DNA of 61,632 nucleotides, from positions 1 through 61,632 of the forward strand of contig ONCF01000071.1 in assembly GCA_900316275.1 (NCBI GenBank), given 5' to 3'. The notes below the pieces were generated by a model. It made no database searches, was not told where the DNA came from, and saw only the letters and a list, made by a program, of their open reading frames with translations. Position 1 is the stretch's first letter, and every line of letters begins with the position of its first letter. The stretch comes from an uncultured Veillonellaceae bacterium (GTDB lineage Bacteria > Bacillota > Negativicutes > Selenomonadales > Selenomonadaceae). Below, piece by piece: positions 5,293-60,900 of the stretch. Made by a program: the position numbers and the translations under genes.

Positions 5293-5792
5293 GGCGATTG
5301 GTGATGTTTTACCAGGCGAACCTCGAGCGGCGCAAATCCGTCATTATTTTTGACGAGGTGCAGTTCTGCCCGTGCGCCCGTCAGGTTATCAAGCATCTCG
5401 TGGCTGACCATCGCTATGATTATATTGAGACGGGGCTGTTTGTGACCCTGATGTTTTTCGATAGTGACTTCGTTGAGAATGATATTTATGCGAAATTGCT
5501 CAGTGGCCGGGGCGCGTGTCAACCTCGGCTATCTGTACGAAAATATCACTGCCCAGGTGCTGGTGGCGCATGGGTATCACCTGTATTACTATACTTTCCC
5601 CAAGGAGCAAAGCAGGCGGCGCTATGAAATAGATTTTTTGCTGCCGGAGCGAAGCAAGATTATCCCCATCGAGGTCAAATCATCCGGCTATCGTACGCAC
5701 GCGTCGTTTGACGCTTTTGCACAAAAATTTTCCGCACGCATCGCGCGTCGTGGACAGATATTGTATAATATGGGGGTAGGGGGGATATACCC
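5293..5792 (+). pseudogene. remnant of an AAA ATPase with DUF4143 domain
   Basis: Two overlapping frames carry pieces of one protein. The first has a Walker-B-like segment (SVIIFDEVQFCPCARQ) and then jumps directly to GLFVTLMFFDSDFVENDIY. After a frameshift near 5500-5515 the second frame continues NLGYLYENITAQVL, EIDFLLPERSKIIPIEVKSS. In intact family members these are ATPase and C-terminal nuclease-like (DUF4143) parts of a protein of roughly 400 residues. The Walker A region, the start and a middle section are missing. The flanks (5178-5292) are AT-rich and hold nothing I recognise. No function is expected. Confidence 0.8.
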
Positions 5793-5833
5793 CCACGTCA
5801 TTTGGTCGAACATTTTGACGAGGAGTGAGGCAG

Positions 5834-6967
5834 ATGAGTACGTTATCACGCCGCAAATTTGTCAAACTCATGGGGGCGGCTGCGGCGGTGGCTGCGGTGC
5901 CCGCAGGTGTGGAACTGGCCCACGGGCCTGAGAATAAAGGAGGTAATGCCAAAGTGGCAGCAGCAAAAGCAGTCGCCGGGACGGGTGGCGACCATTATAT
6001 CCCGTACAGTGAGCGCAGTGGCGAGGCGTCTACGGTGTTCTTTACGCGCGACCTCTCGGCCCGGGGGCTGGAGAAAATCTATGCGCAGGTGAGCCAGGTG
6101 CTCACGGGCAAAGTCGGTGTGAAACTGCACACTGGCGAGCCGCACGGGCCGAACATCATCACGCGCCCGTGGGTCAAGGAACTCCTCAGCGCCAAGCTGC
6201 CGCAGGCGGCGATTGTCGAGACGAATACGTACTATGATGGCGGCCGCTATACGACGGCGGACCACCGTAAAACGCTCGCCACGAACGGCTGGACTTTCGC
6301 GCCTGTCGATATCATGGATGAGGACGGCACGACGATGCTGCCGGTGAAAAACGGCAAATGGTTCACGGAGATGTCCGTGGGCACGCACATGCTCGACTAT
6401 GACTCGCTGCTCGTGCTCACGCATTTCAAGGGGCACGTCATGGGCGGCTTCGGCGGCTCGAACAAGAACATCGGCATCGGCTGCGCGGACGGTCGTATTG
6501 GCAAGGCCATGATTCATACGGCGGAGGGCTCGGACAACCAGTGGAGCATTGACAAAGAGGAGCTCATGGAGCGCATCACCGAGTCGACGAAGGCCACGGT
6601 CGACCATTTTGCGCCGCATATCGCCTTTGTCAACGTCATGCGCAATATGAGCGTGTCCTGCGACTGTGAGGGCACGGCGGCGCAGCCCGTCGTGACGCCG
6701 GATGTTGGCATCCTGGCCTCGCTGGACATCCTCGCGGTTGACCAGGTCTGCGTGGACCTCGTCTACGCGTTGCCGCCCGAGAGCCATCACGACCTCGTCG
6801 AGCGCATGGAGACGCGCCACGGCCTGCGCCAGCTCACGTACATGAAGGAAATGGGCATGGGGAACGACCGCTACCACCTCATAGACCTCGACCACGACGG
6901 TAAGGAAATCACCGCCGACGAGGCAGTCAAGGGCATCAGCGGTAAATGGGTCTCTGACGGGCAGTAA
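5834..6967 (+). CDS. DUF362 domain protein with Tat signal
   Basis: A 377-residue protein. Residues 1-30 form a twin-arginine signal (LSRRKFVKLMGAAAAVAAVPAG), so it is probably exported folded, which often means it carries a cofactor. The rest matches DUF362 as I remember it: GVKLHTGEPHGPNIITRPWV, LLVLTHFKGHVMGGFGGSNKNIGIGCA and a C-terminal part with AVDQVCVDLVYAL. DUF362 proteins are often fused to ferredoxin domains; here no CxxCxxC cluster is seen. The ATG at 5834 has GAGGAGTGAGG before it. A GTG at 5825 is in frame but less well placed. The substrate is unknown. Confidence 0.8.
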   Translation: MSTLSRRKFVKLMGAAAAVAAVPAGVELAHGPENKGGNAKVAAAKAVAGTGGDHYIPYSERSGEASTVFFTRDLSARGLEKIYAQVSQVLTGKVGVKLHTGEPHGPNIITRPWVKELLSAKLPQAAIVETNTYYDGGRYTTADHRKTLATNGWTFAPVDIMDEDGTTMLPVKNGKWFTEMSVGTHMLDYDSLLVLTHFKGHVMGGFGGSNKNIGIGCADGRIGKAMIHTAEGSDNQWSIDKEELMERITESTKATVDHFAPHIAFVNVMRNMSVSCDCEGTAAQPVVTPDVGILASLDILAVDQVCVDLVYALPPESHHDLVERMETRHGLRQLTYMKEMGMGNDRYHLIDLDHDGKEITADEAVKGISGKWVSDGQ

Positions 6968-7007
6968 ACCAATTTGACCTGTGCGATGACGCTGGGAGGT
7001 GCGGGCG

Positions 7008-7604
7008 ATGCAGCGGGAGTTGCCTTATTTTGATATCGAAGGGGCCTATGGCGGCTGGCAGGCGTGGTTCCGCGACCGCTGGATGCGCGTGGGCGGCTGC
7101 GCGGCCGTGACGGCCTGCGATACCTGCATTTATCTGCAGTTGTACCGTGGGCAGGCGCACCTTTATCCATTTGACATCCAGCACCTCACGCGGGCGGACT
7201 ATGTCGAGTTCGGCATGCAGATGCGGCCGTACCTGAGGCCACGCTACTCCGGTGTCGACCGGCTCGATATCTATATCACGGGGCTCGGCGGCTATCTCTA
7301 CGACCACGGCGTGACGCTGGGGCTCGTGCCGTGGGAGGGCGAGCACAGCGAGGCGGACACCATGCGGGTCATCCAGCGCCAGATTGACGCGGGGCTGCCT
7401 ATCCCGTGCCTCATGCTGCGCCATCAGGCCCCTGCGATGCTTGACCTCACCTGGCATTGGTTCATGCTCACGGGCTACATGAGCTATGACGGTCTGTTTT
7501 TCGTCAAGGTTGTGACCTATGGCAGCTGGCGCTGGCTGAATTTCCACCTGTTCTGGCAGACGGGCTACGCGCGCAAAGGCGGGCTCGTGCTGCTACGGGA
7601 TTGA
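7008..7604 (+). CDS. conserved hypothetical protein, papain-like cysteine peptidase fold suspected
   Basis: A 198-residue soluble protein. MRVGGCAAVTACD near residue 27 looks like the nucleophile helix of papain/C39-like enzymes, and WHWFMLTGY followed by VKVVTYGSWRWLNF fits the later His and Asp/Asn-bearing strands. I do not recognise a named family. The ATG at 7008 follows GGGAGG at 6994-6999; a GTG at 6999 overlaps the ribosome site and is rejected. The gene lies 40 bases after the DUF362 gene and may be cotranscribed with it. It ends at a shared terminator facing the Wadjet operon. Confidence 0.65.
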   Translation: MQRELPYFDIEGAYGGWQAWFRDRWMRVGGCAAVTACDTCIYLQLYRGQAHLYPFDIQHLTRADYVEFGMQMRPYLRPRYSGVDRLDIYITGLGGYLYDHGVTLGLVPWEGEHSEADTMRVIQRQIDAGLPIPCLMLRHQAPAMLDLTWHWFMLTGYMSYDGLFFVKVVTYGSWRWLNFHLFWQTGYARKGGLVLLRD

Positions 7605-7619
7605 GATTGATTTTCATAA

Positions 7620-7660
7620 AAGGCCTGCACACCGTGTGATTGCGGTGTGCAGGCCTTTTT
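7620..7660. terminator. bidirectional terminator between the C39-like gene and jetC
   Basis: A perfect 14-bp stem (AAGGCCTGCACACC / GGTGTGCAGGCCTT) with a 10-base loop. Seven T follow on the plus strand, and TTTTATGAAAA follows on the minus strand, so it can stop transcription from both sides. Confidence 0.9.
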
Positions 7661-10600
7661 TTATTCTTGCGGCTGCTCAAACAGGCTCATTTCGGTAATT
7701 TGCTCCAGACGTTCCAGCGTCTCCGGATGCTTTTCGGCAAAGAAGGCGGTTTTGATTTGCCGCTCAGGCTCCAGCACTTTGCCCTGACCATGGGCCAGTT
7801 CGGCGAAGCGGCAGCTGTAGATGATGGGGAAGTATTTGCGGACGAAATTGCCATCCTCGTGCGCGGTGAGCGCGAGCACCTGGAACCCCAGCTGCTCCGC
7901 GATGAAGAATACCGGATCGAGCACGTGGTCACTCGAGGCCTTACCAAAGGGATTGTCGGCGACAACCACGCGATTGTTGGTCTTGCTGCGGGGCAGGCGC
8001 ACGCGTTTTTCGGAGAGATAGTTCAGGCAGCCGAGGAAGAGGGCCATGTTCTTGCACCAGGCCTCGCCACCGGACCATTTGTTGGACTCTTCCCAGTCGT
8101 AGGGACGCTCGGAGAAGGTGGCGGCACTCGTCGCCTTGCGGCATTTGACTTTGATGGCGTTCGTACCCAGCACTGCGTACAGCAGCTGCTGCGTGCTGAG
8201 TTTCTTTTGCAGTTCTTCCTTGATTTTACGGCTGTCCTCGCGTCCGTCCTCGTCGAGGAAGGCTTCGGTATCCAGCCGTTCGGTCAAGGTGCTGAGGTAA
8301 CTGCGGATGGCGGTGCGCCTTTCCGATTCGGGCTTTTCGACAAAATGAATGGTGTAGATATCCTTGCTTTGGCCCTGGGTGCGGATACGGGTTTTGGTGG
8401 CAATCTCTTTGAGGCCCTGGCCAATTTCCTGCAGGTAGAGGGACATGTGCTCGACCATATGTTCGATATGCTCGTAGTGGCCTTTGCGTTCCGCTTCGGC
8501 GATGGCGATGCTTTTCTGGATAGTGTTCAGCAGCGTCGCCCGCCAGGTTTCGTATTCGGCGTAGCTGTCCTTGGCCCGGATGCCATCGACAATCTGCCGC
8601 CGGCGTTTTTCCTCACGGATATGTTGCTCACAGTATTTGATGAAGGTATCGCGTGCCGCGTCGGTTTTTTCGCATTGTTGCTGGTAACGCGCAAAAATCT
8701 CTCCGGCAGTGCGCAGGAGCGGAGGATAGGCCTGCTGGAAGACCGCACTGTCCAGCGTCTGCCAGGCCTCAGGCAGCATGGCCGCCGTCACGCTGTCCAA
8801 CGTAAATTGCAACGTGACATTGTGCTGTCCCAGTTCGTTCAGGATACTTTCCACCTGTTTGAGCTGCCGATTGTTATCCTGCGTTTTCTGCTGGCAGGCC
8901 TGGAGAGATTTGCCCACACCCCGCAACTGGTCCTGAAAAAGCTGTTTCTGCGTGTCCGGGTCACCACTGATGTCCGGCAGGTCAGAATAGCGCTCGTCAT
9001 AGTGTTCACGGATGCTTTCGGCCCGCCCGGCGGCTTTGCTGTACCGCTCATGACTGCGAGTGTATGCCTGCTGTTTGGCTGCCTGGTCGGTGGCCAGCTC
9101 CTGGCGGGTGGCATGTATTTTCTCCTCCAGCAGCTGCCCGTCCGGCGGATAGGTCAGCGTCTCATCCAGGGTTAAAGCGCGCTCCCGAGCCTCTTTCTGC
9201 AGCTGGGCGATGTCTCTGGACAGCCGCTGCTGGTCTTTGCGGGTCTGCAGCAGCCGTTCCTCCAGACGACCGCGGTTTTGCTGGATACCGTCCAACCGGC
9301 TCTTGAGCTGACGCCGTTCATCGGCCAGCACCTCGTAACTGCGCGCATCCTCCAGCGGGGCCAGAGCCTGCACCTCGGCATAGTAGATATCATGGCGGAG
9401 CTGCTCGCGCTGCATGGCGATGGCACCGCTGTTCTGGGCCAGGTCCTGCATTTGCGCCGCCAGGGCTTCCACGCGGCGCTGCTCCTGCTGGCTGTGCTCC
9501 TGGGTCTGGCGCAGCTCAGTGCGCAGTGACTGTTGCTGGGCCAGGGCCTCACGATGCCGGGTCTGCAGCTGCTCATAGCGTGTGAGCTCCTGCAGCTGGT
9601 GCTCGAGCTCGTCCTGCAGCTTCTGCTGTGTGTAGTAGTCCCGTTGATAGTTCTCCACATAGCGCTGGCATTGCTCGATGCTCTGCTCGCTGTCCTGCAG
9701 GTTTTTCTGCAGGATTTCCGTACGGTTCGCAATCTGCTGCTGGCTGTTCTGCAGCTCCTGATATTCGGAAAAGGGACGCCGGGTGTAAAATTTCTTCAGC
9801 CGGGTGTGCGTCTGTGACAGCTGGTTGCAGAGCGTTTCCTGACGGGTGAGCTCGGCATCGCGTTGGCTGGCCTCGGCACGCTGGTCCGCCAGCCATTGCT
9901 GGAAGGTGTCCGCCTCCAGATGTTGCCAGTAGTCAGGCAGGACGGCCTGCGGCTGCTGGGGAGTCCCGCCATCGTTGAGGATGGTGCGCAGCTCACCGCT
10001 GCTCAGGACGAAGACCGGTGCGGTCAGGCGCGGGGCCTGTGTCCGCAGACGGCGCAGCAGCTCGGCGGTGCTGTCCTCGGAGGTGATGAGGGCCGCCGGC
10101 CAGAAGGCGTAGCGGCGCCACAGCTCCTGCGCGTCCTGACCAGCACGGCAGGCTGCCTGAAAGGCCTCGACACCGCTTTGCAGTACGCTGAAATCCTTTT
10201 GCCAGTCCTGTATGAGCTCCGGCAGCAGCGGGTCGGCGGTAAAGCTGGCGGCCTCGCCGTATACATCGACGAAGCGGTGCGCCTGACGGCAGGTAAAGGA
10301 GAGCCGTTTCCGCTTTTCGGTCTCTTTGATGAAACTGTCGCCCAGCTGATTGGACAAGAAATCTGCACGCTGGTACAGCTCCAGGGTATTGCTCACCATG
10401 TTGGCACAGGTGGGGAACTGCTGTAGCTCCTGCAGCAGCTCGCCCGCGGCGCTGTCGATGGCGCTGAGCTGGCCTGTCAGGTCCTGGGCATCGCGCTGCA
10501 GCTGCGCCAGCTGCTGGCGCTCGGCCGGGAGCTTGGCCTGCAGCGTCTGTTTTTGCTCCGTATAGAAGTCCAGATTTTTCTGGTCGTCAGCCAGCTGGGC

Positions 10601-12148
10601 ACGTACCTGCTGCAGTTGCTGCTCCCAGAGGCGGCGCTGCGTGGCGGCATCCTGGTTCAGACTGTCGTCAAAGATGTGCTGCTCAATTTGTTCCATCTGC
10701 TCGACGGCAGTATGGATAGAGGCGCTGCATTCGCCGAGGCGACGGTTCAGCTGCGTTTCCGCCTGGGCCAGTTCCGCCAGTTTCTGGTGGGCATTGGCCT
10801 GCGTTTGTGCCAGCTCCTGGTTTTGTACCGCCAGTTTTTCCAGCCGCTCCTGACAGCCCTGTTCCTGTCGCTGGAAATAGTAATGCAGCTGGCTACCATT
10901 GCGGGTGAGTTGTTGCTGCAGCTCCTGTGTGTCGCGGTCGCTGGCCAGTTCCTCGATTTGCGTGGCCAGAGATTGTTCCGCCTGGCGGGCCTGCATTTGC
11001 TCCTGTTGCAGTTTGGCCAGTCGCAGGCTCTGCAGCTGGCTGTCCTGCTGCCGCAGTTTTTCCGTGGCCGCCTGATAGTCACGCTGCGCCTGCTGGTCCA
11101 GCGCCTGCTGCGCAGCGGCTGCCTGGGCACTGGCCAGCACGTCGCAGGCCTCGATATTTTGCGTCAGCTGTGCCTGCTCCTGCTGTAGTGCCCCGGCCTG
11201 GGTTTGGAGCGTCTGGGCCTGCTCCTGTCGCTGGTCTTTTATCTGGTGCAGACGCTGATACAGGACTTTTAACTGACCGTTGGCGGTGTCCAGCTCGTTG
11301 GCGACGAGGTATTTGGCATGCTGTACCTCCGTATAGTCGGCCAGGCGCTCGACGACGCCCTGCATTTCCGCAATCTGTTTTTGTAAATGGCGCTGTTTGC
11401 GGAAGTGCTCACGCTGGGTCGCAAAGAGCTCGGCAAAGCCGTTGCCCTCGCCTGGTGCATGGCCGTTTTCGTCGGCCAGACCTTCCTCTACAGTGGGGAT
11501 CAGCAGCCTGCCTACGAGCGTGTCATTGGTCCGGCAGTTGGCAAAAAAGGCCTCGACACCGCCTTCGGTTTCGTTGATAGCCGCGATTTTATGCCACTCG
11601 GCCGGGATGATGTGGAAATGTTCCTCGATATAGCGGCCGTAGCTCTGCAGCGAGTCGCTTTCGCCAAAGAAGCGGGCGTTCATGCTGCTGGCAGCCAGAT
11701 TGCGGCAGAACGTGGCCATTTCCTCCTTGGTCGCCGGACGCTGCCGCCCGTCCTCGCGCTGGCTGAGGGGCAGCTGGTCGATGCTGCCGCGGTCGCCGGG
11801 ACCGTATTCGTAGGCGAACTCCTGCGAGGCCAGGGCATCTTTGCTGTTCATGAAGAGCGAGACCAGCGTGAGGGCGTAGCGCCGTGGCTGTTCCTCGAGT
11901 ATCCATTCCACGGCGATGTGCGCGGTGGTGTTGCTCAGCTGCAGCGTCTCCTGGATTTTGCGCTGGGCCACTGTCTTATGTGGCAGGACGGCCTGTATCA
12001 GCGTCTGCACGAAGACGGTCTTGCCGGCGCCGTTTTCCAGCAGCAGGATGCCGTTAAAGCCGTCGAATTGGAACGTGGTGTCGATGTAACGTTTCCGGCC
12101 GCCGTCGTAGACGACATTGGTGAAGCGGATACGGCTGATAGCGGGCAT
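7661..12148 (-). CDS. jetC: Wadjet JetC, SMC/MukB-like ATPase
   Basis: A 1495-residue SMC-family motor subunit. The N-terminal head has a Walker A variant LLENGAGKT (K43, T44). A very long glutamine-rich coiled coil fills roughly residues 270-1200. The C-terminal head carries the signature-like WSGGEAW and the Walker B region VVVADNPFGKASS. In Wadjet, JetC dimers with JetA and JetB extrude DNA loops and present small circular DNA to the JetD nuclease. The ATG at 12148 follows AAGGAGGAATAAAT and lies 2 bases after the jetB stop. The frame is intact. Its last codon abuts a bidirectional terminator. Confidence 0.92.
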   Translation of the reverse strand: MPAISRIRFTNVVYDGGRKRYIDTTFQFDGFNGILLLENGAGKTVFVQTLIQAVLPHKTVAQRKIQETLQLSNTTAHIAVEWILEEQPRRYALTLVSLFMNSKDALASQEFAYEYGPGDRGSIDQLPLSQREDGRQRPATKEEMATFCRNLAASSMNARFFGESDSLQSYGRYIEEHFHIIPAEWHKIAAINETEGGVEAFFANCRTNDTLVGRLLIPTVEEGLADENGHAPGEGNGFAELFATQREHFRKQRHLQKQIAEMQGVVERLADYTEVQHAKYLVANELDTANGQLKVLYQRLHQIKDQRQEQAQTLQTQAGALQQEQAQLTQNIEACDVLASAQAAAAQQALDQQAQRDYQAATEKLRQQDSQLQSLRLAKLQQEQMQARQAEQSLATQIEELASDRDTQELQQQLTRNGSQLHYYFQRQEQGCQERLEKLAVQNQELAQTQANAHQKLAELAQAETQLNRRLGECSASIHTAVEQMEQIEQHIFDDSLNQDAATQRRLWEQQLQQVRAQLADDQKNLDFYTEQKQTLQAKLPAERQQLAQLQRDAQDLTGQLSAIDSAAGELLQELQQFPTCANMVSNTLELYQRADFLSNQLGDSFIKETEKRKRLSFTCRQAHRFVDVYGEAASFTADPLLPELIQDWQKDFSVLQSGVEAFQAACRAGQDAQELWRRYAFWPAALITSEDSTAELLRRLRTQAPRLTAPVFVLSSGELRTILNDGGTPQQPQAVLPDYWQHLEADTFQQWLADQRAEASQRDAELTRQETLCNQLSQTHTRLKKFYTRRPFSEYQELQNSQQQIANRTEILQKNLQDSEQSIEQCQRYVENYQRDYYTQQKLQDELEHQLQELTRYEQLQTRHREALAQQQSLRTELRQTQEHSQQEQRRVEALAAQMQDLAQNSGAIAMQREQLRHDIYYAEVQALAPLEDARSYEVLADERRQLKSRLDGIQQNRGRLEERLLQTRKDQQRLSRDIAQLQKEARERALTLDETLTYPPDGQLLEEKIHATRQELATDQAAKQQAYTRSHERYSKAAGRAESIREHYDERYSDLPDISGDPDTQKQLFQDQLRGVGKSLQACQQKTQDNNRQLKQVESILNELGQHNVTLQFTLDSVTAAMLPEAWQTLDSAVFQQAYPPLLRTAGEIFARYQQQCEKTDAARDTFIKYCEQHIREEKRRRQIVDGIRAKDSYAEYETWRATLLNTIQKSIAIAEAERKGHYEHIEHMVEHMSLYLQEIGQGLKEIATKTRIRTQGQSKDIYTIHFVEKPESERRTAIRSYLSTLTERLDTEAFLDEDGREDSRKIKEELQKKLSTQQLLYAVLGTNAIKVKCRKATSAATFSERPYDWEESNKWSGGEAWCKNMALFLGCLNYLSEKRVRLPRSKTNNRVVVADNPFGKASSDHVLDPVFFIAEQLGFQVLALTAHEDGNFVRKYFPIIYSCRFAELAHGQGKVLEPERQIKTAFFAEKHPETLERLEQITEMSLFEQPQE

Positions 12149-12150
12149 AT

Positions 12151-12891
12151 TTATTCCTCCTTGGCTGCCGGGGCAGCATGGTCGAGTGCATACAGGAAAT
12201 CGGTGATGCCGCGGTTATAGCGCTCTTCCAGATAGTAGTTGGTGAAAATGGTCTTGGCTTTTTCGGTCAAATAATATTCATTGGCGCCCGCGTCGTGCAG
12301 CAGGCCCTGTGTCTCGAGAAAATTCTTCGTCATAATGAGGAAACCGACGCGGCTGGTATTGCGCGCATCCTGCCGCTTGACCGTTTCCTTGACGTCATCG
12401 AGGTCGGACCATTTGCGGATGAGCGCGACCCAGTTGACATTGTAGTCAGTTTCGGCCTGGCGCAGTTCCTCCTCGGGACGGCTCGCGAGTGCCTCCATAC
12501 GCTGGTTCATTTTCTCCAGCCAGTTCTGCAGGCTGACGAAAGGATGGGGCTCGAATGTCGTGTAGCTGTCGTAAAAGCAGCCAACAAAAATCATGATGGC
12601 CAGATACATCAGGTAGATGTCCATGTTGACGGATTTGGCCGTCAGGAAGGTTTTCTTGATCTGCTCATTGCTCATGTGAAACGGCGAGTCCACGGCGAGG
12701 GGGACGAGGTAAATGGCCTCGGCATCGTCAATGATGGTGCACTGCACACGCCCAGCGAACAGTTGGGCGAGGCTGCGGATGTCTTCATTGCTGTAGAGGT
12801 CGGCAAAATCCGCTTTGCTGACCTGACCGTTAGCGGCCAGCTGGCTGTAGAGGTCAAAGGCCAGCAGGACGGTTTTTTCAGGATATTCCAT
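12151..12891 (-). CDS. jetB: Wadjet JetB, MukE-like subunit (DUF6063-like)
   Basis: A 246-residue protein with winged-helix character: VSKADFADLYSNEDIRSLAQLFAG near the start and a C-terminal LIMTKNFLETQGLLHD segment. Its place between the MukF-like and SMC-like genes matches JetB, the MukE-like partner that clamps DNA at the JetC heads. It looks like the DUF6063 form rather than the DUF4194 form of type I systems; this is recalled, not searched. The ATG at 12891 lies inside the end of jetA (14-base overlap), so translation is coupled. Confidence 0.85.
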   Translation of the reverse strand: MEYPEKTVLLAFDLYSQLAANGQVSKADFADLYSNEDIRSLAQLFAGRVQCTIIDDAEAIYLVPLAVDSPFHMSNEQIKKTFLTAKSVNMDIYLMYLAIMIFVGCFYDSYTTFEPHPFVSLQNWLEKMNQRMEALASRPEEELRQAETDYNVNWVALIRKWSDLDDVKETVKRQDARNTSRVGFLIMTKNFLETQGLLHDAGANEYYLTEKAKTIFTNYYLEERYNRGITDFLYALDHAAPAAKEE

Positions 12892-14365
12892 GGCTGATTA
12901 CCACCTTTATCTGCATATTACTGATTTTGAAGGCCGGCTGCTCGATGATACCGGTCGTTTCGCTGACCTGTATCTCCTCCAGCTCCGGATGGTCCTGACT
13001 GATGCGGTAATAGGACGAGTCAGCATCGCCGGCAACATTTTCCAGCCGGAGCAGCTGCCGCCGGTGCAGGAGCATCCAAAAGACGTAAAACTGCTTTTCA
13101 TCCAGGATGCTGGGTCGCTGTTGCGCTTCAAATGTCACAAATTCTGCCAGGGGCAGTTCCGTACGGCCAGCCAGACAGGTGAGCAGGTCGTCGATAATCA
13201 GAGCATAGTGCTGCTGGATGTTGGCCCGCTGGCGGTTTTCCTGCTCCATGGCCAGGGCCGTATCAGGGAAATCATCCTGTCTGCCGGCGCGCTCGATGCG
13301 CTCCAGCCGTTGCGGGGCAAAGACATCCAACGGCGACCAGGTAACGGCGCCGGCCAGCGGCAGAAACGGCTCGATGAGCCGCCGGGAGGCCGGGAGCGGG
13401 AGCGGCGTGGCGAAAAAGCGGTTGGCGATGTCATTATCGAAATTGAAAGAATCGATGCCGGAGAAATAGAGTGCTTCCTCGGCAGCCGCCAGCGCGGAGG
13501 TACCCAGCTCAATCCCGAGCTGCAGCAGCTGACGGTGCTTGCCGTGCACGCTTTCGAGGCGGCGCTCGACCTGCATGATGCTGTCATAGGCGTGACGCTC
13601 CGGGTCTTTGTCGATATTGTCGCGAATGCGGATTTTCGTTTCGCTGATAAAGGTTTTGAGTTCCTTGAACTGCTCTTCTTCACTTTTCAGGCGGTTGTTG
13701 AGGTCGGTGACAGTTTTGCGGTAACGGTTCAGGGTCTCCTCGGAAACGATGCTGCGGTGGATTTCCCGGCGCAGGCGGATGATGCGCTGGTGCAGTGTCT
13801 CCACATCCAGACGCATTTCCTCGACCTGCCGCAGCGCGAGGGAGAACTGCCCCAGTTCCAGCTGCTTGCGCAGGATGAGCTGGTTGATGGACAGCTGGTA
13901 TTCGTTGAAATATTCCTTGGTGGCAAAGACGAGCTCCAGTCCCTGCTCGTCCAGCACATAGTATTGGGACTGCGAGGCTACGTCGACTTTGTCTGCTTTG
14001 AGATAGGAGTATTCCGTCGTGCGCTCCTGCCGCTGCTGCCAGTCGTAGAACGTCTCGGCGTTGCGGCGGCCAGTCGCGGGGCGGAACGTGGTCACGATAT
14101 CGCGCGCCAGTTTTTCGTAAATGGCAGCATCCTCGCCGAATTGGTTGTTGGTCTGTATTTGCAGGAAGCGCGCCAGCTGCCGGATGTCCGCGTTTTTCCG
14201 GCCGGCCAGCATCTGCTCAAAGAAAAAGAGCAGGGTCATCAGGCCCAGTTCCATGGCCGTCGTTTCACTGCCATCGGTGCGCTTGAGCTTGCGTCCGCGC
14301 AAGCGGTACAGCGGGGCAAAGAGCAGCAGGCGCCCCATGCGTTCGTTAAAATTCTCCAGTTCCAT
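12878..14365 (-). CDS. jetA: Wadjet JetA, MukF-like kleisin (DUF5716-like)
   Basis: A 495-residue protein. The N-terminal third is helical (MGRLLLFAPLYRL, LMTLLFFFEQMLAG). The middle is a coiled coil (about 180-260) with heptad-like Q/E/L runs, and the C-terminal third is winged-helix-like. This is the MukF/kleisin layout. The start is the ATG at 14365, with AAGGAGA six bases upstream. The reading from 14383 lacks a ribosome site. It overlaps jetD by 20 bases and jetB by 14. The sequence resembles the JetA of non-type-I Wadjet systems. Confidence 0.85.
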   Translation of the reverse strand: MELENFNERMGRLLLFAPLYRLRGRKLKRTDGSETTAMELGLMTLLFFFEQMLAGRKNADIRQLARFLQIQTNNQFGEDAAIYEKLARDIVTTFRPATGRRNAETFYDWQQRQERTTEYSYLKADKVDVASQSQYYVLDEQGLELVFATKEYFNEYQLSINQLILRKQLELGQFSLALRQVEEMRLDVETLHQRIIRLRREIHRSIVSEETLNRYRKTVTDLNNRLKSEEEQFKELKTFISETKIRIRDNIDKDPERHAYDSIMQVERRLESVHGKHRQLLQLGIELGTSALAAAEEALYFSGIDSFNFDNDIANRFFATPLPLPASRRLIEPFLPLAGAVTWSPLDVFAPQRLERIERAGRQDDFPDTALAMEQENRQRANIQQHYALIIDDLLTCLAGRTELPLAEFVTFEAQQRPSILDEKQFYVFWMLLHRRQLLRLENVAGDADSSYYRISQDHPELEEIQVSETTGIIEQPAFKISNMQIKVVISHGIS

Positions 14366-15374
14366 GTATGGTCTCCTTGGCACAGGCTAACAGCTCCGCA
14401 GGCGTCAGTGCCTCCTGCGGATAATATTGACCGTTTTTCAGCAGCGCGGCGATGCGTGCCAGCAGCTCAGCCGGCAGCTGAGGACGCAGGCTCTCCAGAC
14501 ACTCCGGTGCCGGCTGCTGGTTCGTCTTGCCGTGCGCGGCCGGATGCTGCCAAAAGGCCGTGTAAAAAGGCACGGCCAGCCGCACTGGCAGCGGGGATTG
14601 TTCCTGTAATGTGGTGAAAATACGCAGTCCCTCCCAGTCCAGGTCGCCAAAATACCAGATGCAATGCCTGGCGTCTGGCAGGCCACATTGTTGGGGCAGC
14701 TGGGCGAGCCCCGCACAGATTTTCCAGCCGTAGCCGAGTATCAGCGTTGTAAAGGGAGTGGCCGGCAAATGCGGCAGCATGGCCTGCCAGGGGGCTTTGT
14801 TTTCCACGATTAAATGATGGTATAGCGTATCCTGCCCAGTAAAAGGGCGCGTGGCGAACATGAGCGGGTCGGATTCGGGGACAATCCCCAGACGGGCCGG
14901 TGTCAGCCCCAGATGTGTGAGGAAGTCGGCTGCCTGCAACAGATATTTTTCGTCGCCAAAAATGTCATAGGAGCGTTGTTGCAACGAGGCCGGTGTGATT
15001 GTGTCCGTATGCTTTTGCAAATAGCGGCTCAGCTGCGCGATGGCCTGCTGGTCCCGCTGCCAGATGGCGTAAGGCTGCTGCTGGTACCACGAGAGATTGA
15101 TTTCGCCACTGAGGCCGGTGGCCAGAGCCTCCTGAGCAATCTTTTGGGCCGTGGGCGCGAGCAGTGGTCCCCGGTGCAGCGTATATTTGCGGGCCAGCCC
15201 GCTGTGGTCGGTGCTGGCGGCTTTGATGGGCGTCAGAATATCGTCTGACTGCAATTTTTCGAGCAGCTGGCGGAAATCAGCGTAGCTCATAGGCATGCTG
15301 GCCTGCTGCAGTTCGTCTAGCGTGACACGCTTGCGTTTACAGGCGAGCAGCCAGTCCGTGATTTTGGTTGGCAA
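14346..15374 (-). CDS. jetD: Wadjet JetD, Toprim-type nuclease (DUF2220/DUF3322-like)
   Basis: A 342-residue protein. A DNA-binding N-terminal part is followed by a Toprim domain with the invariant glutamate in LIVENK (E191) and the paired acids in FGDLDWEG (D244, D246). JetD is the subunit that cuts closed circular DNA once loop extrusion stalls. The start is TTG at 15374: GAGAGGAG lies 6 bases upstream and no ATG fits. It is the first gene of the minus-strand operon, whereas type I systems have jetD last. It is transcribed divergently from the yerC-hisZ operon. Confidence 0.87.
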   Translation of the reverse strand: MPTKITDWLLACKRKRVTLDELQQASMPMSYADFRQLLEKLQSDDILTPIKAASTDHSGLARKYTLHRGPLLAPTAQKIAQEALATGLSGEINLSWYQQQPYAIWQRDQQAIAQLSRYLQKHTDTITPASLQQRSYDIFGDEKYLLQAADFLTHLGLTPARLGIVPESDPLMFATRPFTGQDTLYHHLIVENKAPWQAMLPHLPATPFTTLILGYGWKICAGLAQLPQQCGLPDARHCIWYFGDLDWEGLRIFTTLQEQSPLPVRLAVPFYTAFWQHPAAHGKTNQQPAPECLESLRPQLPAELLARIAALLKNGQYYPQEALTPAELLACAKETIHGTGEF

Positions 15375-15452: not shown

Positions 15453-15481
15453 ATTGTACCTTAATTTACCAATTATGGCTA
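15453..15481 (-). promoter_or_regulatory. candidate promoter of the Wadjet operon
   Basis: On the minus strand TAGCCA (15476-15481) and TACAAT (15453-15458) lie 17 bases apart, about 80 bases before jetD. The -35 is weak. It overlaps the -35 of the divergent yerC promoter by two bases. Confidence 0.45.
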
Positions 15482-15508
15482 GTCAGAGGGGAAGAGATGT
15501 GCTATAAT
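15480..15508 (+). promoter_or_regulatory. candidate promoter of the yerC-hisZ operon
   Basis: TAGTCA (15480-15485) and a perfect TATAAT (15503-15508) with a 17-base spacer. The near-palindrome TGGCTAGTCA (15476-15485) covers the -35, a plausible spot for a TrpR-type repressor that reads a CTAG core. Confidence 0.6.
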
Positions 15509-51632: not shown

Positions 51633-52742
51633 TCACAGGGCACGCTCGAGGGCCTCGCGCATGACGCTGTTGCGGTTCTCCGTGATGTGGGAATAGACGC
51701 GCGAGGTAATCACAATGGAGCTGTGGCCGAGGCGCTTCGAGACGAGCTCGAGGTCCACGCCGGCCTCCAACAGCATAGTAGCATGGGTATGGCGCAGGGA
51801 ATGGAAGGACCCTGCGCCGAATTCCTGTCTGCAGAATTCGCCGAAGTAGCGTAGGCGGCTCGCGGTCATCTGCGCGCCGTTGTCATTCGTGCAGACGAGC
51901 CCGCTGGCGTGCCAGTACTTGCCATAGGCGAGACGCTGCTCCTTCTGCCAGTGCTGCTGCGCTTTGAGCTCGGCCGCGAGCTGGCTGCTGAAAGGGATAG
52001 CGCGGATGGAACTGCGCGTTTTGGGCATGGGCTGCAGCTCACCCGCACCGCCGTCATCGTACATGGTGGCGTGGATGGAGACCATGCCGGCCTCCATGTC
52101 CACGTCACTCAATGCCAGGGCGAGGCACTCACCGAGGCGCATGCCGGTATAGTACGCCAGCATGATGGGCATGTGGAACTTGTGGCCGCGGGGGAACTTC
52201 TGCCAGATGACCTCCAGCTGCTCGGGCGTGAAGACATGCGTCTCACGTTGCGCAACGCGGGCGGGCGGCAGGCGCAGCTGCGCGGCAGGGTTGCGCTGCA
52301 GGAAACGGCACGTCTCGTGCGCGTAGGCCAGCGAACGGCGCAGGACATTGCGGATGATCGCGAGCGTACTGCCGGCGAGCTGACGCTGGCTGCTGACAAA
52401 GTTCTGCAGGGCGCGCGGCGTGAGCCTGACGAGCGGCACCTCACCGAGTGCCGGCACGATATGATTGTTGATGGCGCTGTTGTACGCGCGGGCAGTCGCT
52501 GGGCGCAGCATGATGTCGACATACTCGCGGACCCAGAGCCCGAGGAACTGGCTGTAGGGCATCGTCTCGGGCTGCTCGTAATAGCCGTAGGGGTCGACAT
52601 TCTCAAAAAGGAACTTGTGGGCGGCCTTCGCCGCGTCGGCGCGGGTATCACCACCGACACGGGAGACCTTCACCTTGTTGCCGAATTCATCCGGCACAGT
52701 TACTATGAAATACCATTTGGCACCGCGTTTACGGAAATGCAT
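51633..52742 (-). CDS. int: tyrosine-type phage integrase
   Basis: A 369-residue site-specific recombinase. An arm-binding N-terminal part (FRKRGAKWYFIVTVPDEFGNK) is followed by the SAM-like core-binding domain (about 60-150, FLGLWVREYVDIMLRPATARAY) and the catalytic domain with Arg in YYTGMRLGE, HxxR in FHSLRHTHAT, His in KRLGHSS and the nucleophile Tyr in SRVYSHITE. All catalytic residues are present. AGGAGG lies directly against the ATG at 52751, so the start at 52742 (9-base spacing) is preferred. Its 3' end points to the candidate att site. Confidence 0.92.
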   Translation of the reverse strand: MHFRKRGAKWYFIVTVPDEFGNKVKVSRVGGDTRADAAKAAHKFLFENVDPYGYYEQPETMPYSQFLGLWVREYVDIMLRPATARAYNSAINNHIVPALGEVPLVRLTPRALQNFVSSQRQLAGSTLAIIRNVLRRSLAYAHETCRFLQRNPAAQLRLPPARVAQRETHVFTPEQLEVIWQKFPRGHKFHMPIMLAYYTGMRLGECLALALSDVDMEAGMVSIHATMYDDGGAGELQPMPKTRSSIRAIPFSSQLAAELKAQQHWQKEQRLAYGKYWHASGLVCTNDNGAQMTASRLRYFGEFCRQEFGAGSFHSLRHTHATMLLEAGVDLELVSKRLGHSSIVITSRVYSHITENRNSVMREALERAL

Positions 52743-52812
52743 GTTAATCATCCTCCTAGAAAAAAGGACGGGAACCGTACTGCAAATACCTGTAACATTC
52801 TCCGATTTGCTA

Positions 52813-53659: not shown

Positions 53660-54607
53660 TTACAACATCGACAAAATGGTAGGTGATAGCCCCATACCGG
53701 TATCAATCTGTTTCAGGACTTCAAGTGGTACTATAGCAGCCATACGTCTATGAGCCTTACGGAACCTGTTCTTTAGTCTACGGAAATCGGCCGTGCCCAT
53801 AAAGTACCTCATGGCAATCAGCTTAGCAAGCATGTCTGACTTGCCAGCAATATAGTTACCTTGCTGGTTGCGAGGGATATCCAGCTGGGCGTGAATAGGG
53901 GTGTCTGGAATAAATTTACGAAAAAGTGGCTGGCTGTCAGATGTATACATGCGATTGCCATGTGCGCAGGCATTGCGGAAATCATTAAGGAAATAAATAA
54001 AACCGTCCATAGTGCTGGCAGGCATCTTGAAGTGATAAGCTACTGCCTGCTGTTCAGCCAGATACATACAGGAATAGAAATGTGCAATACGCCCAAAGGA
54101 AATCACACTGTTAAGGACCCAAAGGGGGACATACCCGTAGGCGCTCAAATAATGGCAGATAGCGGCATTGCCGGTCCTGCGGGACCGTATTATATCGCCT
54201 CTGAGTTTCGTAATCACAATATCAGCAAAGTGAATATTGTTCTGACTAGCGTGCTTGAAGCAATCCAGCGAAAGATACTGCCGGTGGTCGTAACCGTGCT
54301 GGGCCGAGAAGTGATAGGCAATAAGCGACTTCACATGCTTTTCTATACGCAGCAGTTCCGTGAGGAACAAGGAACGTATGGCCTGGTCGAACTCGTACAA
54401 AGCGTAAACCTGCTCGAAAGTCGTGTCGGGGATATAATGGTCTGGGCTGGTACTGGTAAGGAAATACTTCTTATAGCCGTTGATGATGTTGTAGTAATCA
54501 TCCTGTTGCATTTTGTGGGTAAAGAACCGCTCGTGCTCAATAACCAGGCCCCGCTGTTGCAAAATCCGGCACTGCTCTCTGTATGTCTTGAAAACTTTGT
54601 CTGTCAT
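53660..54607 (-). CDS. Abi_2/AbiF-family abortive infection protein (HEPN ribonuclease)
   Basis: A 315-residue protein of the Abi_2 (AbiD/AbiF) type. The N-terminal part has the family start TYREQCRILQQRGLVI and the YYNIINGYKKYF segment. A HEPN-type catalytic motif, R211-x4-H216 (FRNACAHGNRMY), follows the helix FIYFLNDF. A further R-x3-H (RIEKH) lies near 87-91. HEPN proteins of this type cut RNA and can stop phage growth by halting the cell. AGGAGGG precedes the ATG at 54607. Its codon use is more AT-rich than the flanks, fitting horizontal transfer. Confidence 0.87.
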   Translation of the reverse strand: MTDKVFKTYREQCRILQQRGLVIEHERFFTHKMQQDDYYNIINGYKKYFLTSTSPDHYIPDTTFEQVYALYEFDQAIRSLFLTELLRIEKHVKSLIAYHFSAQHGYDHRQYLSLDCFKHASQNNIHFADIVITKLRGDIIRSRRTGNAAICHYLSAYGYVPLWVLNSVISFGRIAHFYSCMYLAEQQAVAYHFKMPASTMDGFIYFLNDFRNACAHGNRMYTSDSQPLFRKFIPDTPIHAQLDIPRNQQGNYIAGKSDMLAKLIAMRYFMGTADFRRLKNRFRKAHRRMAAIVPLEVLKQIDTGMGLSPTILSML

Positions 54608-54994: not shown

Positions 54995-57900
54995 TTTGCA
55001 GACGTCAGCAAAATGGGACCTGTGAGACTGGCCAGACTGCGTATAAGGCGCTGCAGGACGGCATGGGCAAGGGCGGCCAAATTCTCGAGGTGCGCGACGA
55101 GAACGACCGCGTCACCTACAAGCGCACGACGGAAAACGCCGAGTGGTATCGTAACTTCTATGCGACGTTCCATCGCGCCCCGACGAAAGACGAGCTGACG
55201 CAGATGGCTATCGCGCTCACCACGGGCGACGCCTCCGCGCCGAAGGTCATGGGCTTCATCCCGCAGAGCGAGGAGGAGCAGCAGGCTATGGCCGACTCCA
55301 AGCGGGAAATCGACTACCTGCAGCAGGCACTCACCACGCTCGACAAAATCAAGCCGACCATGCAGAAGCTCAACGGCGTCGAAATGAAGCTCACGGAGGG
55401 CCTCTCCTCCGAGGCCTTCACCGTCTACCGCACGGTCAGCGACCAGCTGAAAGCCTTCGGCGGCCTGCCAGCCCGCGCGGCCCGCGTGAGCGCCATCCTC
55501 ACAGCCCGCCACGCCGACATCGTGGCCGGTATCATCAGCAAGAAAACGGGCAAAAAATATACCGCCCTCGACTACATGCGGGAGCGGTACGGGTTCGATG
55601 CGGAAGGGAAATATATCGGCGACAACGCACTACATCAGCCTGTTACCGAATTGGACTTGGAGTTAGATAAACAAATTCCAGTGCTTGACTTGGACACCAT
55701 GGATACGTCATTGCGCAATAAAGAACCCAAGGAGGTGATAGCGTACATAAAAGAAAAGTTGCCTAGAGACGCAATCCCTACGGCAGATTTTAAAGCCATG
55801 ATTGGAGCGCCGAACGATAGTTATGGTGCAACACATATAGTCAGGAATAAATCTGCAGCTGCAGAAGAAAATAGAATAGCCAGAAACGCTGCTTTGACTA
55901 ATATCGATGCTGTTATTAGGCATTCGTATCTTATCGAGGTCGTACCGAACGAAAAGATAGCTGTCGCCCAAGAAATGCCACGATGGAAGCGAAAAGCTCA
56001 ACGCAGGAAAAATAGCATTGATGAGTTTTACCGTTTAATTATTCCTGTCCGTATAGACGGTGAACAGAAAACGCTTATTATCGTAGCAGAAAATAAGCAC
56101 GGCAAAGTCAGCATTAACCAAAACGAAACTAACCTTTATGAAATTTACACAGCAAAAGAGGAGAACCATCCCGTTCGCCTATCGGAGCAAAACACTCCCG
56201 ATACTCGCGCTACTGAGGATGGCTCTCCATCTACCATTAGTATACGCGACACTTTACGCGGGGTCAAGGACTATTTGTTTCAGCCATACGTGGACGAGAA
56301 TGGCAACGCGAACTATGGCGTTTACTTGCAGAATGGCGTTATGTACCTGGGGCAGAACGCATCCCTCAATCAGCTGGCCTGGCACGGCTCGCCACATGTG
56401 TTCGACCACTTCGACCTCGGCGCTATCGGCACGGGCGAGGGGGCGCGCGTTCACGGCTGGGGACTTTATTTCGCAAAAAACCGCGAAATGTCCGAGAAAT
56501 ACCGCGCGATGCTTGCAGGAAAACCGGAAAGTGTAGCACTTAACGGAACGACATACCATTATCAGGGCAATAAGATTATCGGCCCAGATGGTAAGGCCGT
56601 TGATGACTTGCCGCTCATGCTGGCCATTAGCGAGTTACTGGAGTCTGGAAGCAAAGAAAAGACGCTCGACCGCGCTAAAGGGGCTGCCGCTTTGGCTTTT
56701 GACAAAGAGCAGAAGGAAACATGGCAGCGTGTACAGGAGATAATAGAAAACTCAGACGTTCGCTTTAAACAGGACGGCACCCTCCTGGAGGTTGACGTCC
56801 CCGAGAACGACGTACTGCTCGACGAGCAGAAACAGTTTGAAGACCAGCCAGAAAACGTAAAAGCAGCATTGTTGAGCCTTGGTATTGCCAATGCCACGGG
56901 CAGAAAAGGGCAGCAAATTTATGATGAGCTCAGCCGGAAACTGGGCAGCGACCGTGCAGCATCGCTTGCACTAAACGAGGCAGGTATAAAAGGCCTGCGC
57001 TATACCGATGACGTAGACGGCGAGTGCTTTGTCGTTTTCGACGACAAAGCCGTGTCTATCATCGACCGCTACAATCAGGCAGCAAACGCCAAGGCGGCCG
57101 TGCGCGGCACGACTACGGTCATGCAGGACGGGCGGCGCATTGTGTCGCTGACGCAGAACGCCGACGAGTCCACCTACATGCACGAGATGTCACACATCTT
57201 CCTTATGGACCTCGGCGACCTCGCACAGATTGACGAGACCAGTGCCAAGGAACTTGAAGTTGTCAACCAGTGGGCCGAGTGGCACCGTGGCGACGCGGCG
57301 CTCTACAAGGGCTCGCCGTGGGCGGCCGAGTTCCGTGCGCGCGAGGAGTCTATCATCGCAGCCGAGGATGCGGGCGACTTCGACGAGGCCGACCGGCTCA
57401 AGAACGTCTGGCGGCAGGAGCGCTTCGCCCGCGCTTTCGAGCAGTATCTGCGCGATGGTCAGGCACCGGCCCGCGGGCTGCGCGCCGTGTTCCGCAAGTT
57501 TAAGCAGTTCCTGCGGCAGATTTATCAGGCGGTCATCGCGGACGGCACCAAGGCCAGCGAGCCCGTGCGCCGTATCATGGACCGCATGATTGCCACCGAG
57601 GACGAAATCACCGAGATGGAGCTCGACGACCGCTACAAGGACATCAGCAAGGCGGGCGGCGAAAAGCTCTTTAACGAAAGCGAGCAGGACACCTATAAAC
57701 GCTGGCAGAAGGAGGCGGCCGAGGAAGCCAAGGAAAAGCTCATGAAAGAGCTCATGCAGGACCTCAACGCCAAGGTAGACGAGGAATTCAACGCGCGCGT
57801 GGCCAAGGAAGATGAGGACTACCGTCGCGAGCTCATGAACGAGCCTGTCTATCTCGCGATGCAGGCCGCCGTGGCCAGCGGCAGCGAGGAAGCCGTGCTC

Positions 57901-60900
57901 GGCTGGTTCCCATCCATCGAAGCTTACACCAAGGCAATAGAGGAGGCTCCAACCTTCGAGGATGCGCTCAAGGAACACATGGACGCCTACAAGGAAACGC
58001 TGGAGGCCGAGCTCATTCGCACGCACCTCTCCGAGGAGAATGTGACACACATCATGGAAAGCACGCTCTATCGTGCCAAGCTGGAGTCGCTCAAGGCCAC
58101 GGCCTTTGCCAAAAAGCAACGGCTCATCAACACCATTACCAGCAAGGCCGAGCGCGCGATGTCGTCCGTGGAGGAGAAAATCACGGCCCTGCCCGAGGAC
58201 ACCGACCTCAAAGTCGAACGCTTCGACAAGTCTGTGAAAGACGTCATGAAGGAAATCAACCGTCTGCGCTTCTCCACGCGCTGGAGCACGGCGGACATCG
58301 AACGCATCGAGGGCATGCTGCAGGCGGCCACCAAGGAAGAACTGGCCAAGAAAATGGCCGACTTCAAGCTGGCCGTGCAGAACGACAAGGCCAACGAGAA
58401 AGCCGTGGAGAAAGCCAACGAGGGCCGCATGCACGCCTATAAGGACATGGCGAAGAAATCCCTCGCTGGCAAGCCGTTGCATGAAGCCTGCGACTATAAC
58501 GGCTACATCCGCCAGGCCAAGAAGGCCGCCAAGCAGGTGCAGCAGATGGTCAAGGCCAAACGCTGGGACATGGCTATCCTTGCGCAGCAGCGCCAGGCTA
58601 TGGCTATGGCACTGGCCGAGGAGTCCCGCAAGCTGCGCCAGCACGTCGACAAGCTCACGGGGCAGGTTAAGCGCCAGCTGCAGGCCCGCACCGTGCGCCT
58701 GCCGAAGGACGAGCGCTACTGGCACCGCCACCTCGCCTACATGCTGCGCATCACGAGCACCGACGCACAGAAACCGGCAAGCGGCTGCGCGGGACTGGAT
58801 GCTTTGTTCAGCGACATGACGGCCTCGCTCGACATGCAGGAGGGCTTCTCCCCGACGGATATCCTCGAAATGGCCAACGAGCAGGGCGCAGACTTCAAGG
58901 GCTGGCAGTCCCTGACGATGAACCAGTTCGAGGACGCCGTCAATGCCATGAACATCCTGTACACCACCGGCAAGAACAAATTTAACATGGTCACCGTCGG
59001 CGGCAAGGCCATCGCCGACGTCGTCGACGAAATCATCCACGACGACAGCGAGGCCAGCCGCGTGGGCGTGCAGCGCCGCGTGGTAAACGAGGACATCGGC
59101 GGCCTCGGCTACAATGAGTGGCTGGCCAAACTGCCGGGCGGCGAGGCAGCCGCGCGCATGGGCGTCAAGGCGCTCTCGGCTATCACCAAGCCGGAGGAAA
59201 TCCTGCGCGCACTGGGAACCAAGGCACACAAGTACATCTATGGCATCTACGAGCGGGCCCGCGAGCAGGAGGGGAAGCGCATCGCCGACGAAATGGCCGC
59301 GCTGCAGAAAATCCTCGCGCCGTACTCGCACAAGGAACGCCAGGCATGGAAAGACCGCAATATCCAGCTTAGTGGCTACGAAGGGATGCTCTCAAAAGAG
59401 AATGTCATCTGTATGGCGCTCAACCTCGGCAACACTATCAACCGCCAGCGCCTTGCGGGCGGCTTCGAGATGCCAGAGCAGGACATCGTGGACTTTGTCG
59501 AAAAGCACATGACCACCAAAGACTGGCAGCTCGTGCAGGACATCTGGGACCATCTCAACACCTACTGGCAGGACACCGTGGCCGTAGAGGAAAAACTCAA
59601 CGGCATGGCGATCAAGAAAGTGGAGGCCGTGCCTTTTACCGTCAAGGCCAGCGACACAGGCGAGCAGATACGCCTCAAGGGCGGCTACTATCCCATTGCC
59701 TACAATCCTAAGAAATCCAGCAAGGCGGCCGAGAACGCCGAGAACGCACTGGCCCGCGGCAGCATGTCGGGCGCTATGGTACTCGGCACCAACCGCGGCT
59801 TTACGAAATCCCGTGCCGAGGTGGACATCGAGGGACGGCCCCTGCTGCTGGAATTCAGCGTCGTGCCGGACCATCTGCAGGCGGTCATCCACAATATCAC
59901 GTTCCGCCTCGCGGCCCGTGACGTCTACCGGCTCATCAACAACAAGGACTTCGAGGCGCACGTCGCCGACACGCTGGGCAGCGAATACCACGCTATCCTC
60001 AAGGAATGGGCCACTGACGTCTGGAACATCACCGGCAACAACAACGTGGCGGAAAACGTCATCGGCAAAGTCTTTAACTGGCTGCGGGCCAACTCCACGA
60101 TGTCCATTATGGGCTATCGCATCTGGCCGGTAGTGGAGAACATCTCCAACATCGCGCCGGTTATCGACAAGCTGGGTGCGGCGGAAACGGCCGCGGCGAT
60201 TGCGGACTTTTACGCGAATATCGGCGAGGCGCGGCACATGCTCACCAAGTCGGTATTCATGCAGAACCGCATCAACTCGCTCGACCGCGACATCCGGCAG
60301 CAGCCGGGGCTGTTCTCGGCCACGTACCGGCCTATTGAGATTATCCGCGACCATGCCTACGACCTCATGCTCTACTCGGACCTCATGCTCTCGGCCCCGC
60401 TCTGGCTGCGTTCCTACAAGAACGCCTTCGGCGACAAGCTCGCCGAGGTACGCAAGGAGAACGCCGCGCACATACAGGCCATCCGGGCGGCACAGGACAA
60501 AGTGGACAGCATCAAGGCACAGCTGCTGGACCTCGCCGAGGGCAAACTGCCCGAGCGGGCGGAACTCTCGCCCTTTGACGTCGTCAACATGACCGAGGCC
60601 GAGGGGATGGACTACCTCGACCGGCAGCAGAAGGACCTCGAAAAGGACCTTTTAAAAGCCGAGCAGGAATTCCAGCAGGCTACGGAACTCCCCATCTATA
60701 CTGACGCCGAAATCATCAGCGAGGCCGAACGGCGCGCCGTGTTCGCGGCGGACGGGGCCGTGCGTGACACGTTCGGCAGCGGCGCCACGATGGACCAGTC
60801 CTCCATCCAGCGCACGCGCAACGCAGCCATCAAGCTCATGACCACGTTCTACTCGTTCTTTAACACGCAGTTTAACGCCATCCTCGCGAGCTACCGGCAT

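Follow-up and report, generated by a model that had tools for sequence, protein, structure and literature searches.

A type III Wadjet operon in an uncultured Veillonellaceae bacterium and an asparagine at the catalytic glutamate position of type III JetC

Introduction

The accepted picture of Wadjet defense, in which ATP-driven loop extrusion measures a DNA circle that is then cut, rests largely on type I systems, whose genes stand in the order jetABCD with jetD last. Type I includes the systems of E. coli GF4-3 and B. cereus Q1, MksBEFG of C. glutamicum and EptABCD, and type II is represented by the system of N. vireti and, presumably, by that of P. aeruginosa PA14. The operon reported here shares with type I and type II the four-part layout of kleisin, KITE, SMC and Toprim subunits as well as the fold of JetD. 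A review describes types II and III as still to be characterized (PMC10586767), and a further paper reports that the hinge channel is absent from type III (PMC12647877). In two other papers, the Walker B Glu-to-Gln substitution E1042Q impaired the ATPase of C. glutamicum MksB (PMC10123090) and E1407Q abolished DNA entrapment by MukB (PMC7617805). The same review describes a naturally altered Walker B glutamate in LmuB of Lamassu, likewise a defense SMC-like ATPase; the residue is changed to glutamine, which is read there as meaning low or no hydrolysis (PMC10586767).

Materials and Methods

The window, by which we mean the whole stretch of DNA that was analyzed, is contig ONCF01000071.1 (61,632 nt) of assembly GCA_900316275.1 from an uncultured Veillonellaceae bacterium, and the operon occupies positions 7661-15374. 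Gene order was tallied over 58 loci, made up of the window, relatives, and 48 loci with DUF6063 that came from a sample of 398 Bacillota genomes; three duplicates (L046-L048) had been removed before all counts. Left out of the JetC alignment were L066, in which JetC is split in two frames, and L051, L060, L087 and L011, which have no complete JetC; L076 and L088, although truncated or incomplete, cover Walker B and were kept. The type I and type II rows were chosen by their match to a JetC profile alone, whatever the operon. L117, a different kind of SMC-like protein that likewise has DE, was dropped from the type I tally, as were two proteins whose C-terminus fell outside the frame read (L127 and L128) from the type II tally. 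Two additional JetC3 profiles used as queries recovered mostly the same loci, and a tblastn search against phage sequences gave no match.

Organization of the operon

Open reading frame analysis placed four intact, co-linear frames on the minus strand, in the order jetD-jetA-jetB-jetC from 15374 down to 7661. This confirmed the four-gene D-A-B-C Jet operon of the initial annotation, including its description of the genes as overlapping or abutting with all frames intact. The first gene, jetD (14346-15374, minus strand), begins with TTG just downstream of a GGAG-type ribosome binding site and encodes the 342-aa Toprim/Topo VI A-like nuclease subunit of type III. It is followed on the same strand by jetA (12878-14365), encoding the kleisin (MukF/MksF-like) subunit of 495 aa from an ATG at 14365 or 501 aa from a GTG at 14383, by jetB (12151-12891), encoding a 246-aa KITE-type (MukE/MksE-like) subunit of the DUF6063 family, and by jetC (7661-12148), encoding an SMC-like ATPase of 1495 aa. 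For jetA the ATG appears preferable to the GTG: it is the start site in most relatives, and at least 50 of 54 alignment rows have gaps at the six residues that open the GTG frame. The genes jetD and jetA overlap by 20 bases if the ATG is used and by 38 if the GTG is, jetA and jetB overlap by 14, and a gap of 2 bases separates jetB from jetC, so that the earlier values of 20, 14 and -2 hold, the first of them with the ATG start.

Between jetC and a convergent gene (6999-7604) lies a 17-base perfect inverted repeat with T runs (7618-7659, no strand assigned), which is likely a bidirectional terminator closing the operon. Upstream of jetD there is a weak promoter-like site, TAGCCA-17-TACAAT (15453-15481, minus strand), that overlaps a divergent site for yerC-hisZ (15480-15508). 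Four promoter-like sites were observed in the region versus 2.6 expected, and we regard the pair before jetD as suggestive of a promoter.

Assignment to Wadjet type III

PADLOC typing, which had been named beforehand as a check, returned type III for all four genes. The best matches were JetD3 for JetD (2e-71), JetA3 for JetA (4.1e-164), JetB3 for JetB (2.8e-89) and JetC3 for JetC (E-value of 0, 1214 bits, profile PDLC00582), with JetC near PDLC00582 and distant from the other seven of the eight type III profiles that it matched. Best scores of 239 to 1214 bits on four co-linear genes rule out chance. The Pfam scan of the four proteins matched JetD_C in JetD (26.2 bits against a cut-off of 22) and DUF6063 in JetB (240.8 bits) and nothing else, the jetA product being without a match. 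Type III families of JetA, JetB, JetC and JetD thus occur together here, and their order is that of other type III loci, as judged from the loci counted in this study. These profile matches, together with the fold of JetD described below, support the assignment of the operon as a complete Wadjet system of type III. As such, the earlier view of a complete Wadjet operon with jetD first was upheld, and the JetA and JetB sequences, which had been thought to be of a kind other than type I, are indeed closest to JetA3 and JetB3. In comparison with type III, nothing essential is different: the same four models are the best matches and the genes are arranged as is usual in the loci examined. The operon adds another member to the known type III Wadjet systems.

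The nuclease subunit has the Glu and Asp-x-Asp expected of a Wadjet Toprim nuclease; E191, D244 and D246, which had been picked out in the initial annotation, occur here and are invariant across all 51 sequences. An AlphaFold model of JetD (pLDDT 83.6, pTM 0.54) had as its top VIA structural match MksG of C. glutamicum (8b7f; Z 13.7, 222 residues, rmsd 11.8 A) and as its second JetD of P. aeruginosa (7til; Z 12.1, 288 residues, rmsd 19.0 A), followed by Topo VI A and Spo11. We read the large rmsd values as shifted domains. With the same model, Foldseek placed Topo VI and Spo11 at the top, and MksG and JetD were absent among the best 50 matches listed. PDB sequence searches with JetC alone and with JetD alone gave no match, and profile searches gave weak matches only.

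Gene order, distribution and relation to housekeeping SMC systems

A recognized JetD was present in 51 of the 58 loci and came first in 48 of these and last in three (L092, L093 and L097). JetD in first place in 48/51 loci makes D-A-B-C the normal order of type III. The order is therefore real and differs from the jetABCD of type I, as had been pointed out, but it is not unusual, and D-first order as a novelty was rejected. Among the seven loci with no recognized JetD, four are cut near a contig end (L045, L074, L083 and L088) and three are not. The latter are type III-like JetA-JetB-JetC cores (L072, 3203-9870; L095, 3360-10107; L096, 6290-13042), the one in L072 standing directly after dnaX-ybaB-recR, gene names that were recognized from the sequence. 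This suggests that cores of the L072 type are a housekeeping or differently armed version.

Cores of the same family that lack JetD (L072, after recR-like genes, and L095/L096), as well as the Wadjet-group members without JetD that are noted in PMC7617805, could be taken to mean that the operon of the window is itself not a defense system but a housekeeping condensin resembling MukBEF/MksBEF. We judge this very unlikely. A housekeeping MukBEF or Smc-ScpAB is a sole or universal condensin with no nuclease partner, a description that does not fit this operon: its JetD is full length with an intact active site, and all four proteins were typed by HMM as Wadjet type III, whereas the outcome earlier named as counting against a Wadjet operon was a placement in a housekeeping MukBEF or another SMC system. 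The housekeeping SMC has its gene at another place in this genome (G000:C70), and a separate SMC was found in 21 of 21 genomes examined, this one included; since the host has its own normal SMC, the Jet operon is not its housekeeping condensin. Nor is the distribution that of a universal condensin, with JetA in seven of 60 genomes (own genome included) and in one of three other species of the genus, and with the two operon-bearing members of the genus having it in different places.

In the genus sister with jet genes (L008, G001), the operon is on a different contig from the his genes. The corresponding region was retrieved from five relatives (L168-L172); every one of them conserves the right flank of the operon in the window, yerC-hisZ-HD-hisG, and no jet genes were seen in the retrieved stretches. 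The patchy occurrence of JetA and its different placement within the genus argue that the operon is accessory. More widely, DUF6063 was found in 47 of the 398 sampled Bacillota genomes, own genome included. Close relatives in named records belong to Selenomonadaceae/Veillonellaceae and are mostly metagenome assemblies, six of them coming from the genome-contig scan; the RUG names of these assemblies presumably point to the rumen.

Asparagine in place of the catalytic glutamate of JetC

The window JetC keeps Walker A (N39-G-A-G-K43-T44), the signature motif (S1359-G-G-E) and the Walker B aspartate, and has asparagine in place of the catalytic glutamate. The D1398-N1399 codons lie at 7952-7957 on the minus strand (position computed from the frame, in which codon n starts at 12148-3(n-1) and runs down). 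Within the sample, the change extends to the entire type: all 53 aligned JetC sequences of type III, which represent about 35 family labels, have both D1398 and N1399. Three further type III JetC proteins, L218, L230 and L231 (a Pontibacillus megaplasmid), also have N at 1399, of which L230 is not independent support because the search pattern that retrieved it contained DNPFG. In contrast, the catalytic glutamate was present in 19 of 19 type I loci, with Walker B as FDEA(F/Y)xxMD, and in 10 of 10 type II loci covering the site, with Walker B as LDEAFAG(V/I/L)D, and DE was found at Walker B in 18 of 18 housekeeping SMC proteins. Profile alignment with hhalign placed the type III DN on the DE of type I (E-value 6.9e-6) and of type II (1.2e-5) with probabilities of 81-85%. 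It is on these sequence profiles that the three-dimensional position of N1399 rests, as the AlphaFold model of the C-terminal ATPase lobe, made from an alignment with six close rows, had a pLDDT of 40. Type I JetC proteins are also shorter (about 1100-1240 aa in complete frames, versus 1495 aa here) and have an intact D-loop Asp, whereas Asp was found in 0 of 53 type III sequences at the corresponding position 1405, which is S in 43, N in 3, K in 2, V in 2, G in 1, T in 1 (L090) and a gap in 1.

Elsewhere in the ATP site, K43 of Walker A is kept in all 52 rows covering it, and the signature Ser in 53 of 53, the last signature residue being Glu in 32 and Gln in 21. Nucleotide binding therefore seems to be kept in type III JetC, as far as the motifs can tell. 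A second odd change at the ATP site is a Gly for the Thr/Ser of Walker A (GKG), seen in eight type III JetC proteins (L086 and L091-L097), seven of which cluster together in the tree.

To our knowledge, the catalytic glutamate is no published defining feature of type III, and the asparagine does not, for that reason, exclude the operon from the type. We found no mention of a Glu-to-Asn change among the open-licence papers searched for type III Wadjet or its Walker B, and it is possibly already in print. Loss of the glutamate might be expected of a decayed or inactive remnant, an explanation that we consider the least credible of all. The four frames are intact, asparagine is fixed over about 35 families, and Walker A, the signature and the catalytic residues of JetD are conserved. 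Because N1399 is as invariant as the Walker B aspartate, the asparagine looks selected and not drifted.

Possible mechanisms of type III Wadjet

The reading that we favor, with a probability of about 0.87, is that the operon encodes a complete type III Wadjet anti-plasmid system in which JetABC would act as the sensor of circles and JetD as the cutter, with JetC binding ATP and hydrolyzing it very slowly or by a relocated residue. By analogy with types I and II, JetA, JetB and JetC would assemble into a dimeric SMC complex able to trap DNA and to sense it as a small closed circle, whereupon the Toprim nuclease JetD would be activated and the circle cut. The same analogy is what lets us infer, in line with the initial annotation, that the operon may be active against small circular DNA. 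The type I mechanism is not simply transferable, however, as JetC is without a residue that the known extrusion-and-cut mechanism needs. With Glu replaced by Asn throughout type III, either there is no ATP hydrolysis and extrusion of the type I kind or hydrolysis is carried out by another residue. JetC would in either case bind ATP and engage its heads, and it would then hydrolyze the ATP very slowly or with the help of that other residue.

Relocation of the catalytic residue, for instance to E195 in the N-lobe, would allow type III JetC to hydrolyze ATP normally and to extrude loops like types I and II. This is a serious possibility that we place a little short of even. All 53 sequences have E195 and N192, and E195 could, from this conservation, be a candidate catalytic base. 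The system is moreover widespread, as the DUF6063 count indicates, and presumably functional, and the review states that Wadjet cleavage requires a working JetC ATPase (PMC10586767). The idea, drawn from its invariance, that E195 is a Q-loop Gln-to-Glu swap was not supported: profile alignment of the E195 region had probabilities of <1%, giving no signal either way on a place in the Q-loop or near the phosphate. The loss of the D-loop Asp as well fits a rebuilt active site and not a simple swap.

If hydrolysis is instead very slow, type III would be an ATP-locked clamp or slow sensor rather than a loop extruder of the type I kind. We know of no asparagine that activates water as the catalytic glutamate does. 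We speculate, tentatively and with more doubt than belief, that the whole of type III, lacking the SMC catalytic glutamate, works as a clamp locked by ATP or as a one-shot sensor, recognizing DNA circles and triggering its nuclease without extruding loops processively. Were this true, type III would join Lamassu as another, independent example of an SMC-type defense machine that abandoned ATP cycling. LmuB differs in being Rad50-like and short and in having other partners, and its likeness to JetC is one of description. For a whole type to lack the ATP-splitting residue would imply either that circles can be sensed without extrusion or that SMC proteins have a second route to split ATP.

Other observations at related loci and in the window

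A D-A-B-C type III Wadjet operon is carried on an 898-kb megaplasmid of Pontibacillus sp. ALD_SL1 (L231), in the record of which JetD alone is named, JetB being given as DUF6063 and the other two proteins as hypothetical. The circles that Wadjet is reported to cut are far smaller than this megaplasmid. On a viral contig (L230), the C-terminus of a type III JetC lies upstream of phage terminase- and portal-like genes, recognized from the sequence; this is probably a prophage beside a Wadjet operon.

Near its right end the window contains an abortive infection gene that is Abi_2/AbiD-like and lies close to a tyrosine integrase (53660-54607 and 51633-52751, both on the minus strand), and the two are possibly parts of a mobile element with its own defense gene. 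Two long frames of 713 and 359 aa (57190-59331 and 59392-60471, minus strand) lie in a region of strong AT skew and had no match in Pfam or PHROG. A DUF4143-type gene is represented by a C-terminal fragment left of the operon (5464-5931, plus strand); the fragment matches the PADLOC candidate PDC-S01 and is possibly the remnant of another system.
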